From the NCBI GenBank assembly GCA_019637875.1, contig JAHBUW010000003.1:62001-126000 (forward strand): a stretch of 64,000 nucleotides of DNA. Reading direction: 5' to 3'. Shown here piece after piece: positions 10,194 through 26,538 of this stretch. Origin of the DNA: Pseudobdellovibrionaceae bacterium (GTDB taxonomy: Bacteria; Bdellovibrionota; Bdellovibrionia; Bdellovibrionales; Bdellovibrionaceae). Numbering within the stretch: the first letter of the stretch is position 1; every line of letters starts with the position of its first letter. Both the position numbers and the translations under genes were made by a program. The notes beneath the pieces were generated by a model, which was given only the letters and a program-made list of their open reading frames with translations, ran no database searches and was not told the origin of the DNA.

Positions 10194-11150
10194 ATGACGA
10201 CGGGCTTAAAGATTTTCTCGGGAAGTTCGAATCCTAAACTCGCGCAAAAAATCGCGCAGGCGGCCGGGGTTGAACTCGGATACTGCCAGCTCAGCCAATT
10301 CGCCGACGGCGAAGTTCAGGTCGAGATTCACGAGTCGGTCCGCGGCGAAGACATCTTCATCATCCAGTCGACCTGCCCGCCCGCGAATCAAAACTACATG
10401 GAGCTCTTCATCATGATCGACGCCCTTCGCCGGGCCTCCGCGAAGTCGATCACGGCGGTGATTCCCTACTACGGTTATGCCCGTCAGGACCGCAAAGTTG
10501 CTCCCCGCGCGCCGATCTCGGCGAAGCTGATGGCGGATCTGCTGACCACCGCCGGCGCCAGCCGCGTGGTTTCGGTGGATCTGCACGCCGCCCAGATCCA
10601 AGGTTTCTTCAACGTTCCCGTGGATCACTTGTTCGCGATTCCGACGCTGGCCCGCGCGTGGCGCGAAACCTACGGTTGGGGCCCTGAGTTCGTGGCGGTC
10701 AGCCCCGATGCGGGCGGCGTCGAGCGCACCCGCGCCTTCGCGAAACGCCTCGAGTGCCCGCTCGCCATCATCGATAAACGCCGCTCGGGACCGAACGAGG
10801 CGAAAGCCCTTCACCTGATCGGGGACGTCACCGGCAAAACCGCGATCATCGTGGACGATATGGTCGACACGGCGGGAACCCTGACCCAAGCGGTCGAAAG
10901 CCTCTACAAAAACGGCGCGGCGAAGGTCTTCGCGCTGGCGACCCACCCGGTCCTTTCCGGCCCCGCGGTCAGCCGCCTGATCGAAAGCCCCATCGAAAAG
11001 CTCTGGGTGACCGACACGATTCCGCTCTCGGAAGCTGCTAAGAATAGCGGCAAACTTGAGGTCGTCAGCGTGGCGCCCCTCTTGGCCGAAGCGATCAAGC
11101 GGATCCACGGCAACACCTCGGTGTCGTCGCTTTTCGACGAATCGACGTAA
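10194..11150 (+). CDS. prs: Ribose-phosphate pyrophosphokinase (PRPP synthetase)
   Basis: This cytoplasmic enzyme makes PRPP from ribose 5-phosphate and ATP for purine, pyrimidine, His, Trp and NAD synthesis. The 318 residues match class I length. Visible signatures are FADGEVQVEIHESVRGEDIFI, the ATP-site region IPYYGYARQDRKVAPRAPIS, SVDLHAAQIQGFF, the flexible catalytic loop IDKRRSGPNEAKAL and the PRPP-binding loop AIIVDDMVDTAGTL. It has its own promoter and is followed by weak hairpins before rplY. A divergent second homologue lies at 25618-26538. Confidence 0.97.
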   Translation: MTTGLKIFSGSSNPKLAQKIAQAAGVELGYCQLSQFADGEVQVEIHESVRGEDIFIIQSTCPPANQNYMELFIMIDALRRASAKSITAVIPYYGYARQDRKVAPRAPISAKLMADLLTTAGASRVVSVDLHAAQIQGFFNVPVDHLFAIPTLARAWRETYGWGPEFVAVSPDAGGVERTRAFAKRLECPLAIIDKRRSGPNEAKALHLIGDVTGKTAIIVDDMVDTAGTLTQAVESLYKNGAAKVFALATHPVLSGPAVSRLIESPIEKLWVTDTIPLSEAAKNSGKLEVVSVAPLLAEAIKRIHGNTSVSSLFDEST

Positions 11151-23345: not shown

Positions 23346-24314
23346 ATGCGCATCCCCCTTCTTCTCGCCACGCTGATCCTGACGACCGCGGCCCATGCGG
23401 CGGATGCCCGCCGCTTCACCCCGACCGGGCCCGATGAGCATCCCGCGCAGATTCTGCTCGATTCGCCGAGCGGTCGTTGCAGCGCGAACGTCATTTCGGA
23501 CGCGGGGCATGTGTTGACCGCGCGCCACTGCCTGATGCGCTGTTTGGTCGCGAGTGGCGTCTTTGAATTCCGTAAGGACAGCGGTTTCTTCCTGCAGTTC
23601 CTGAAACCGGAACGTTTGGGCGTCGCGACCTGCGAACTGGAGCTCGACGGGAAAGTCCGCACGGCGACCGTGATCGCGACCGCCCCCGGCTTTCTGTCGC
23701 AGATGGAAGAGCGCGGCTTCCGCGCGATCAATCCGGAACGTTACGACGAGTTGGTCGCCCTGGGTTTCACCAGTCGCGGCGACTTCGTGATCCTAGAGGT
23801 CCCGGAACTGGCGGGACGTCCCTGCCGTCCCTTGGCCCGCGAACTTCCGCGGGCGGGCGAGCCCGTGGCGAGCGCGAGCTTTCCGAGCGCGACGACTCGT
23901 CCCGACGGGGCGAACTCGGACGGCGTCGCGAAATACCGAACCGCGGGCCGCGTGACTTCGGGGATCGCCGACAATGCGTGTTTGCAAGAATGGGCGAAGA
24001 CGGCGGCCCCCGCCGAATACGATCGCCGCCTGAAATCGCTGCGCGAAAATTTCGACGAGCCCGGCAGCTTCATGACCGACACCGACGCCGTTCCCGGCTC
24101 GAGCGGATCGGGAATCTGGAACGAACGCGGCGAGATCGTGGGAATTTTGACGAATGCCTACCGTCACGCGGCGACGACGAATCGGAACACCGACGAACCC
24201 AACGCGCGCTACTGCGCAGGTTCGAGCCTCGCGCTTTCGGGCGCGCGGATCTATGAGCTCATCGAAGCGCTCGCCCCCGGTTGGGACGCGCGCCTGCGCT
24301 GCACTTCGAACTAA
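23346..24314 (+). CDS. Secreted trypsin-like / V8-type serine protease
   Basis: After a signal peptide (RIPLLLATLILTTAAHAAD) the 322-residue protein shows a chymotrypsin-fold protease. The catalytic His is in VISDAGHVLTARHCLMRC, the Asp is probably in the SRGDFVILEVPEL stretch, and the nucleophile Ser is in DAVPGSSGSGIWNERGEIVGIL. GSSGSG is closer to glutamyl-endopeptidase-like S1B enzymes than to classical GDSGGP. No pro-domain or membrane anchor is evident. TACAAC ends 6 nt before the ATG and may be a leaderless -10 box. It overlaps the convergent dehydrogenase gene by 4 nt. Confidence 0.82.
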   Translation: MRIPLLLATLILTTAAHAADARRFTPTGPDEHPAQILLDSPSGRCSANVISDAGHVLTARHCLMRCLVASGVFEFRKDSGFFLQFLKPERLGVATCELELDGKVRTATVIATAPGFLSQMEERGFRAINPERYDELVALGFTSRGDFVILEVPELAGRPCRPLARELPRAGEPVASASFPSATTRPDGANSDGVAKYRTAGRVTSGIADNACLQEWAKTAAPAEYDRRLKSLRENFDEPGSFMTDTDAVPGSSGSGIWNERGEIVGILTNAYRHAATTNRNTDEPNARYCAGSSLALSGARIYELIEALAPGWDARLRCTSN

Positions 24315-25306
24315 AGATGGGAGACGATGGCGGCGGTGAAACTTTTCGTGTTGCCGCGACCGCCCAAGTCCCCCGTGCACACTTGCGGATCCTGAAGCGC
24401 CTTGAAAAGGGCGTTCTCGACCGCGCGCGCTTTGTCGATCTCGTGCACGTGCTGCAGCAGCATGACCGCGCTTTGTAGGAGCGCCGTGGGATTGGCCTTC
24501 CCCTGCCCCGCGATGTCGGGCGCGGACCCGTGCACGGCTTCGAAGACCGCGATGTCGTTCCCGATATTCGCGCCGGGGACGATCCCCAAACCGCCGACCA
24601 GTCCCGCGCACAGATCGCTCAAAATATCGCCGTAAAGATTTTCGGTGACGATGAGTTCGAACTGCTCGGGCTTCGTCACGAGCTGCATGCAGCAGTTGTC
24701 GACGATGACGTCGTAAGTTTGAATGTGCGGATAGCTCGCGCCGACCTCTTGGCAGACCTTCAAGAAAAGTCCGTCGGACATTTTCATGATGTTCGCTTTG
24801 TGCACGATCGCGACTTTCTTCTTTCCGAGTTTCGTCGCGAGCTCGAAAGCGTATTTCGCGATGCGGGTCGAACCTTTGCGCGTGATCCTTTTGATGCTTT
24901 CGGCGGTGTCGTCATCCACCATACGTTCGATGCCGGCGTAGAGGTCTTCGGTGTTCTCGCGCACGATGACAAGGTTCGCCTTCGCGTTCACGGTCTTGAT
25001 GCCGGGCGGGCTGATGACGGGACGCACGTTCGCGTAGAGCTCGAACTTCTGGCGCAAGGTCACGTTGATCGATTTGTGACCGCCGCCGGTCGGCGTGCTG
25101 GTCGGTCCCTTGATCGCGAGTTTGGATTTTTCAATGGAAAGCAGGGTCGAATCCGGCAGCAGGCTGCCGTGTTTCGCGAGCGCCATTTCGCCCGCATCCG
25201 CGAACTCGTAGTTGAACGGCGCCTTCACGGCCTTCAGGACGTCGACGACCGACGTCATCACTTCGGGACCGATGCCATCTCCGGGAATCACGGTCAGGGT
25301 CTTCAT
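24311..25306 (-). CDS. Isocitrate dehydrogenase, NAD-type (isopropylmalate-dehydrogenase family)
   Basis: A cytoplasmic oxidative decarboxylase of 331 residues. TVIPGDGIGPEVM opens the Rossmann-like fold; the substrate region includes GHKSINVTLRQKFELYANVRP and NTEDLYAGIERM. VAIVHKANIMKMSDGLF carries the catalytic Lys, and VIVDNCCMQLV and TENLYGDILSDL the metal Asp residues. FEAVHGSAPDIAGQGKANPTALL completes the signature. The Ser/Asn pattern after GGGHKS suits isocitrate better than isopropylmalate. With sucAB-lpdA at 38-44 kb it would supply the oxidative TCA branch. Homoisocitrate or tartrate dehydrogenase is a less likely alternative. Confidence 0.88.
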   Translation of the reverse strand: MKTLTVIPGDGIGPEVMTSVVDVLKAVKAPFNYEFADAGEMALAKHGSLLPDSTLLSIEKSKLAIKGPTSTPTGGGHKSINVTLRQKFELYANVRPVISPPGIKTVNAKANLVIVRENTEDLYAGIERMVDDDTAESIKRITRKGSTRIAKYAFELATKLGKKKVAIVHKANIMKMSDGLFLKVCQEVGASYPHIQTYDVIVDNCCMQLVTKPEQFELIVTENLYGDILSDLCAGLVGGLGIVPGANIGNDIAVFEAVHGSAPDIAGQGKANPTALLQSAVMLLQHVHEIDKARAVENALFKALQDPQVCTGDLGGRGNTKSFTAAIVSHL

Positions 25307-25383
25307 GGGCTTCTCACTTTCTGGGCGCAGGATCGCACCCCCCGATTTTCGGTGGCGCGCGGGCTCGGCGCAAGCAGTCTTTC

Positions 25384-25583
25384 AAGCGGACCGCCTTGAG
25401 GCTTGCTTAAGAACCCGGAAGAACGGGCAAAGTCTTCTTTCCTGTTTGGCTGGGGCACGGCCCTCCTGGCCTCTGCCGCAGGTCCATACGCCATCCAGGC
25501 GCTGCGGAGGCCCCATCCAAACAGGAAAGAAGACTTTGCCCGTTCCTCGAGATTTGGATCGCAAGCCTCAAGACGGCCCGCTT
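25384..25583. repeat. 200-bp nested inverted repeat
   Basis: Outer arms of about 22 bp (25384-25406 and 25561-25583, CTTGAGGCTTGC core, two mismatches) enclose a 14-15 nt unpaired step. A perfect 29-bp inner stem (25421-25449 with 25517-25545, containing AAAGTCTTCTTTCC) follows, and then a 67-nt apical part that itself pairs GGCCTC/GAGGCC and CGCAG/CTGCG. No T-run or transposase gene is present. It fills the gap between the isocitrate dehydrogenase start and the second PRPP-synthetase gene, its right end touching the -35 box of the latter. It may be a MITE/REP-like repeat or a structured RNA. Confidence 0.9.
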
Positions 25584-25611
25584 GGCATTTGTACGGAAGT
25601 CGAGGCATGAT
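25582..25611 (+). promoter_or_regulatory. Predicted leaderless promoter at the edge of the inverted repeat
   Basis: TTGGCA (25582-25587) and CATGAT (25606-25611) are 18 nt apart, and the -10 box ends 6 nt before the ATG at 25618. The -35 box overlaps the last two bases of the 200-bp inverted repeat. Confidence 0.45.
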
Positions 25612-25617
25612 CGATTC

Positions 25618-26538
25618 ATGATTCTATTCACGATGCCGGGATATGAAGAGTTGGGGCGAAAAGTGGGCGCGGGACTTTCGGCGCGCGAAGGTCGTGTGGA
25701 AGTGCGGCGTTTTCCGAACGATGAACGCTACCTCAGAATTCTGACTTCGGTCCGCGAAGAAGACGTCATTTTGCTGGGCGGAACGATCAACGACGCCGCG
25801 ACGCTCGACCTCTTCGATCTGGGCTCGGGGCTGGTGACCGATGGTTGCCGCTCGCTCAAGATCGTCGTGCCGTTTTTCAGCTATTCGACGATGGAACGCG
25901 CCGTGAAGCCCGGCGAGGTCGTCACCGCGAAGACGCGCGCCCGTCTGCTGTCGGCCATTCCCGCCGCTCCCTTCGGCAATCAGGTTCTTTTGATGGATCT
26001 GCACTCTGAGGGGATTCCGTTTTACTTCGAAGGCACCGTCCGAACGCAGCACTTGTACGCGAAACCCGTCGTGCACGCCGAAGCCCGTCGTTTGGGCGGT
26101 GACAACTTCGTTTTGGGCGCGGTCGATGCGGGACGGGCAAAGTGGGTCGAGTCGCTGGCCAACGACATGAACGTCCCCGCGGCGTTCGTTTATAAAAAAC
26201 GCGGTGACGACGGTGCGGTTTCGGTCTCGGGTACGAATACGCCGGTGGCGGGACGACACGTCGTTATCTACGACGACATGATCCGCTCGGGCTCGTCACT
26301 CCTGCAAGCGTGCCGCGCTTACCGCGATTCGGGAGCAACGGGCATTTCGGTGATCACGACCCACGCCGATTTCACGAATGACGCGGTCACGAAACTTAAA
26401 GCCAGTGGCTTGATTCGGGAACTCGTGTGCACCGACACGCATCCGAAAGCCTTCCAAACTCGCGACGCGTTTTTGACGGTGGTGTCCGTCGCGCCCGTCC
26501 TCATCGAGGCTTTACGCAAGCCGACGCACGACGCCTGA
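25618..26538 (+). CDS. Divergent ribose-phosphate pyrophosphokinase homologue
   Basis: A 306-residue protein with both halves of a PRPP synthetase. The N-half has RRFPNDERYLRIL and the ATP-site-like VPFFSYSTMERAVKPGEV, where classical enzymes have YYGYARQDRK. VLLMDLHSEGIPFYFEG matches the DLH region, and HVVIYDDMIRSGSSLLQA is a good PRPP-binding loop. The catalytic flexible loop KRRSGPNEA is replaced by YKKRGDDGAVSVSG, so classical activity is uncertain. It may be a divergent-class PRPP synthetase or a phosphoribosyltransferase-like regulator. A canonical prs is at 10194-11150. The 200-bp inverted repeat lies just upstream. Confidence 0.75.
   Translation: MILFTMPGYEELGRKVGAGLSAREGRVEVRRFPNDERYLRILTSVREEDVILLGGTINDAATLDLFDLGSGLVTDGCRSLKIVVPFFSYSTMERAVKPGEVVTAKTRARLLSAIPAAPFGNQVLLMDLHSEGIPFYFEGTVRTQHLYAKPVVHAEARRLGGDNFVLGAVDAGRAKWVESLANDMNVPAAFVYKKRGDDGAVSVSGTNTPVAGRHVVIYDDMIRSGSSLLQACRAYRDSGATGISVITTHADFTNDAVTKLKASGLIRELVCTDTHPKAFQTRDAFLTVVSVAPVLIEALRKPTHDA

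Follow-up and report, generated by a model that had tools for sequence, protein, structure and literature searches.

The analyzed stretch of DNA, 64,000 nucleotides from a Pseudobdellovibrionaceae bacterium (hereafter, the window), contains a nested inverted repeat between two divergent genes. A mechanical search located its arms and gave a 202-bp element at 25383-25584, the place where the sequence-only reading had seen it. The features of this locus are as follows.

24311-25306, minus strand: isocitrate/isopropylmalate-type dehydrogenase gene on the left, divergent from the prs-like gene
25383-25406, plus strand: left outer arm, CAAGCGGACCGCCTTGAGGCTTGC, 24 nt, 92% complementary to 25561-25584 with two mismatches
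25407-25420, plus strand: left side of an asymmetric internal loop at the junction of the outer and inner stems
25421-25449, plus strand: left arm of the inner stem, 29 bp, perfect
25450-25516, plus strand: repeated and conserved tip, 67 nt, of which about 60 nt are common to 13 other copies (80-94% identical)
25451-25456, plus strand: basal stem of the tip, TGGGGC, partner of 25510-25515
25459-25471, plus strand: tip hairpin A, GGCC-CTCCT-GGCC
25476-25507, plus strand: tip hairpin B, CCGCAG...TA-CGCC-ATCCA-GGCG-CTGCGG
25517-25545, plus strand: right arm of the inner stem, partner of 25421-25449
25546-25560, plus strand: right side of the internal loop
25561-25584, plus strand: right outer arm, partner of 25383-25406
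25582-25611, plus strand: weak promoter-like (sigma-70-like) site of the prs-like gene, TTGGCA-18-CATGAT, 9/12 matches
25618-26538, plus strand: ribose-phosphate diphosphokinase (prs-like) gene on the right, starting 34 bases beyond the window copy

The architecture described in the sequence-only reading was recovered in all its parts, namely the perfect 29-bp inner stem, the outer arms with two mismatches, and an apical 67 nt that pairs again by folding into two small hairpins. The inner arms can be taken as 39 nt each (25418-25456 and 25510-25548) at 95% complementarity. The folding z-score was about -13 on both strands, and none of 200 shuffles folded equally well. The inverted repeat in the window is real and far beyond chance. 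The KSSFLFGW-like peptide encoded on both strands is, as had been proposed, a consequence of the symmetry. A T-run terminator and a target duplication, both reported absent from the window copy, were looked for there and neither is present. At the right end, said to touch a promoter, the final 3 bases of the repeat indeed fall inside the weak sigma-70-like site. The gene that follows had been named the second PRPP-synthetase gene, and this assignment holds; the first such gene, at 10212-11102, is a paralogue 28% identical to the prs-like gene adjoining the hairpin. A role of the window copy in the expression of its two divergent neighbours (prs and icd) is possible.

The window copy belongs to a dispersed family. 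A 200-base search of its own genome gave 15 matches, one of which was the element matching its own opposite strand, and the 69-nt tip alone as query returned the same 14 places. A covariance model built from 13 aligned copies found 14 in the genome with E values from 1e-25 to 1e-16, the next match having an E value of 0.16. The sequence-only reading had suggested searching for further copies with the 29-bp arm. Such copies exist, but that query would miss the family because the tip is common to the copies and the arms are not. Across the phylum, 46 of 369 genomes were positive at E<=1e-6, with only three outside Bdellovibrionales, and 52 of the 141 Bdellovibrionales genomes were positive at E<=1e-3. 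Related bacteria carry well over 150 copies of this tip-conserved repeat. No Rfam family reached its gathering score; the sole match, mir-8791 (26 bits, cut-off 85), was rejected as a chance miRNA-type match. Two narrow tip patterns found no match in viral contigs and matched Bdellovibrio MAGs among genome contigs, and a Nocardioides match to these patterns was rejected, being without covariance-model support. Nothing relevant was found in the literature searched for Bdellovibrio palindromic repeats.

Alignment of 13 own-genome copies showed a common tip with invariant ACGGCC..TCC..GGCC, CCGC, TACG and GCGGAGG segments, whereas the stems differ. The tip forms a T- or Y-shaped three-way junction of about 60 nt, composed of a basal stem and two hairpins with nTCCn loops. 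The hairpin A loop retains TCC in 155 of 162 copies, and hairpin B carries TCG or TCA in its place in 37 of 161 scored copies. The asymmetric internal loop of the window copy is seen again in other own-genome copies. On the named structure, 95.8% of alignment cells were paired. Changes on both sides were found at 19 of 33 structure pairs (8.0 in shuffles), including 16 of 19 stem pairs. Compensatory cells numbered 57, whereas shuffles gave 13.7 and sliding the partners left no more than 8. None of the 57 was a G-U pair. The stem, about 20-80 bp long, has an almost unconstrained sequence but is paired in each copy. Variants of the tip were also observed. The own-genome copy L013 (G000:C1:228489) has an extra insertion of about 14 nt at the junction of hairpin B and the basal stem, and in L077, L080, L073 and L083, from several genera, an extra hairpin replaces the hairpin B bulge to give an enlarged tip.

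The arms are largely specific to each locus. Within one genome, copies whose tips are 95-100% identical often have arms that match little or no better than at random (G121 and G100), and by 30-45 nt from the tip the resemblance between arms is no greater than in shuffled sequence. Three copies in genome G127 have only about 74 nt of tip in common. Two of these are 96% identical over the 74-nt block with nothing common beyond it, and their arms pair over 82 bp with no mismatch and over 50 bp with 4 mismatches. The 82-bp arms of L175 (G127:C4:91801-93103) are 100% identical and form a perfect palindrome. The left arm of this copy includes the final codons of a gene for an OppC/DppC permease (oppC-like; ...GDGLRDAFDPKMKK*), a C-terminus that is native by alignment with solved OppC/DppC. 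The right arm repeats the left exactly in inverted orientation, directly behind the stop of the convergent gene. Overlap of the left arm with a coding end was rejected as a general rule; under strict alignment only L175 was convincing, and many looser overlaps were dropped as alignment spill-over. At the orthologous Bdellovibrio loci L070/L071 and L179/L181, flanks and tips are near-identical and changes are clustered in both arms. These clustered changes and the inverted copy at L175 are marks of fold-back copying between arms. Template switching is reported to create and maintain hairpins (Monttinen and Loytynoja 2022, PMC8794818). Other copies have more in common. The own-genome copies L010, L011 and L012 have similar arms, and outer feet are partly common among copies in G010 and G121, which indicates that whole-element movement also occurs.

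Copies tend to follow stop codons closely and in a fixed orientation. With genes called by a heuristic based on simple amino-acid composition, a gene pointing at the element with its stop within 80 nt was found on the left at 44 and on the right at 12 of 121 copies. Over 162 copies, left arms most often begin 0-40 nt after a stop codon, whereas the distances on the right show no peak. Inverted pairs in Bdellovibrio and others are nearly all plus then minus, with each element behind its own gene. In three Bdellovibrio genomes (L147, L179 and L181) the gene preceding the element ends in ...DEIPF, a sequence resembling the acidic tip of a single-strand DNA-binding protein, a putative identity. 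The inverted pairs at these loci are kept across species with differing arms.

The mismatches in the stems are biased toward one strand. In the plus orientation, the part of the stem up to about 40 nt from the tip had 125 A·C mismatches against 40 G·T (p about 2e-11 with pairs treated as independent, which related copies are not fully), and farther out the counts were 83 and 80. An A·C excess on the plus strand means that wobble pairs are retained on the minus strand. The excess was present for every orientation of the neighbouring genes and is therefore a property of the element rather than of upstream-gene transcription. Collection of copies with the covariance model would itself produce a bias in the opposite direction. 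The simplest reading is that the minus strand folds, either as single-stranded DNA or as RNA; a mutational cause is an alternative.

Evidence for movement as a unit comes from the window's own genome. Nine copies there have ends related to GAAACTG(G/C)(A/C)CCC, and exact 9-bp direct repeats lie directly outside the ends of L008, L009, L010, L012 and L013 (TGAAAGGCT, TATCGAGTA, AAACTAGAA, TTTTTATTT and CTTCATTTC, respectively). A length-specific exact scan of about 120 copies gave 9-bp duplications at 4, all in this genome, and 0 in displaced controls; the scan found none in other genomes. The duplications at GAAACTG-type ends show that this subgroup moved as whole elements through a staggered cut, in a MITE-like manner. 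No autonomous transposon with these ends was found in the genome, where GAAACTGSMCCC end pairs occur only at hairpins, and exact 12-mer ends are confined to hairpins plus one lone site. An autonomous IS with GAAACTGGCCCC ends was likewise not found in this genome. In relatives, no close inverted pair of such ends was seen apart from the hairpins. The window copy, located by chance between two divergent genes, would be an older or resident copy that has no target duplication.

A transposase gene is associated with the family at one place. In G010 (L035), a 182-aa RAYT-type Y1/HUH transposase gene is bracketed by oppositely oriented copies. Its relative in the window's genome (L106) is 29% identical and has no copies around it, and about 29 other RAYT loci of this subfamily have no flanking copies. 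The RAYT was rejected as a general mobiliser, with Y1_Tnp in 112 of 140 order genomes irrespective of element presence. The related subfamily is found in 81 order genomes (140 scored for Y1_Tnp), and the element-bearing genomes G127, G020 and G069 are without it. RAYT presence is uninformative because its spread is independent of the element and it is absent from some element-bearing genomes. Two other RAYT-type genes were observed in the window's genome. One, at L104:1115-1950 (G000:C8:177833-178105), lies between inverted repeats of about 50 nt with GGTACC...palindromes and forms a REPtron-like unit of its own, which has no relation to the hairpin family. The other, at L105 (G000:C7:6332-6661), is TIRtron-like, having on its two sides, at 1337-1359 and 2118-2140, the arms of a perfect 23-bp inverted repeat, TAGCCGCTCACTTGTTGAAACGC.

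The sequence-only reading had offered a non-autonomous mobile element, a cruciform regulatory site or a long structured RNA. The first is the best supported, owing to the 14 genome copies, the 9-bp target duplications at five of them and the compensatory stem changes. The other two are weaker candidates; neither a promoter leading into the element, nor a terminator, nor any sign of a transcript turned up. On balance, we lean toward the window feature being a member of a non-autonomous, REP/MITE-like family of dispersed DNA hairpins in which the tip is recognized and the arms are copied from each other or from the flanks. The tip would be recognized by a protein, probably on the folded minus strand, and the stem would need only to pair, its sequence being otherwise free. 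Such a strong hairpin may then undergo fold-back copying by template switching, one arm being made from the other or from flanking DNA. Arm copying at the DNA level would keep the arms perfect and give every locus its own arms. We infer that this copying is the rule across the family. A narrower version, which we regard only as tentative, has the tip of about 60-75 nt as the sole mobile or templating unit. It would land behind a gene, and synthesis would fold back and make an inverted copy of the neighbouring DNA, yielding a palindrome of its own for each locus on one strand. Several observations stand against the preferred hairpin-copying explanation. No mobilising enzyme was found for the window's genome, RAYT linkage is seen at L035 only, target duplications are confined to the window's genome and missing at the window copy, and clear inverted copying of native DNA is confined to L175. 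Strong tip constraint together with long neutral drift of paired arms could mimic locus-specific arms, copies in G121 and G010 do have outer feet in common, and the A·C/G·T asymmetry is not predicted from plain arm copying.

An ordinary MITE would be inserted by a transposase together with its arms, and in old copies the tip would be constrained while drifting arms were kept paired by selection for folding, with no copying from flanks. The 9-bp duplications and common GAAACTG-type ends in the window's genome fit this account, as do the similar arms of L010, L011 and L012, the partly common feet in G010 and G121, and the retention of orthologous copies at the same locus across Bdellovibrio species. 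We nevertheless consider it doubtful, given unrelated arms on identical tips, G127 copies alike over only 74 nt, and a right arm at L175 that exactly mirrors a native gene end. Chance or an assembly artefact, which had been the expectation should no second copy and no compensatory change turn up, is scarcely credible. The draft assembly comprises 30 contigs, but 13 further copies and compensatory changes were found in it, and the same tip and covarying paired stems occur in many genomes, including single-contig ones.

Two readings place the function in RNA. A structured minus-strand RNA, such as a CsrA-binding sponge, would present GGA in the two hairpin loops within CA(N)GGANG. Of 162 tips, 135 have this motif on the minus strand and 3 on the plus strand, although it is partly a by-product of loop conservation and of the C-G pair that closes the loop. 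The genome carries csrA, and the tip-proximal mismatch bias corresponds to minus-strand G·U in all gene contexts. We find a sponge unlikely all the same, as neither promoter-like sites into the element nor terminator T-runs are in excess, hairpin B departs from TCC in the TCG and TCA copies, the usual upstream gene would transcribe the opposite strand, wobble cells are rare, and Rfam holds no family with a credible score. Sense-strand selection behind stops, as proposed for REPs, would instead make the repeat an mRNA 3'-end element acting as a stabiliser or in translation-end or read-through control. The strong fixed-orientation placement and the inverted pairs, each member behind its own gene, agree with such a role, which is still quite improbable; the strand favoured by the wobble bias is the antisense one, the window copy has divergent genes on its two sides and stands behind neither, and there is no T-run.

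The family resembles several known systems in part. Like GTAG- or CGTC-tagged REP/REPIN sequences, the copies are intergenic, mostly behind genes, hairpin-forming and often in inverted pairs. REP/REPIN sequences, however, measure 20-40 bp, whereas these hairpins span about 90-200 bp with a three-way tip and have no general RAYT link. A REP hairpin carries an unpaired GTAG or CGTC at its foot; here, with both strands counted, about 20 of 162 tips contain GTAG, and CGTC has no fixed place. Bacterial MITEs share with the own-genome subgroup 24-bp ends, a 9-bp target duplication and the lack of an internal gene. Terminal inverted repeats are present in the hairpins with ends that vary by subgroup, but no autonomous partner was found, and family-wide conservation lies in the tip rather than the ends. 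The T-shaped inverted terminal repeat of AAV also has a long stem and a tip of two small hairpins; this likeness is of shape only, and no kinship in sequence or genes is implied. The nearest published arrangement to L035 of G010 is the TIRtron, in which long TIRs surround a RAYT-like gene (Di Nocera 2013, PMC3733652). In both, the inverted repeats on the two sides of the RAYT-type gene are long and in part self-complementary. TIRtron TIRs also form a moderately abundant dispersed family, often in inverted pairs as seen in G010. The hairpin family differs in bracketing a RAYT at one locus only and in its conserved tip and free arms, and the GGGGWSAS motif, present in some TIRs only, occurs in 2 of 162 copies. 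Template-switch hairpins (PMC8794818) and the conserved-arm palindromes of nematomorph mitochondria (PMC6649704) resemble the family in perfect arms, clustered both-arm changes and an inverted local copy, but are not seeded by a single conserved repeated tip.

Repeats are usually recognized by conserved ends or stems, whereas this family has a conserved tip and paired arms that vary by locus, a pattern that holds within one genome and between species. The hairpins provide a large set of covarying sequences in which wobble pairs are biased to one strand, and a warning that compensatory changes by themselves are no proof of a functional RNA. The family thus offers a natural test bed for the origin and upkeep of long bacterial palindromes, by selection for folding or by copying between arms.
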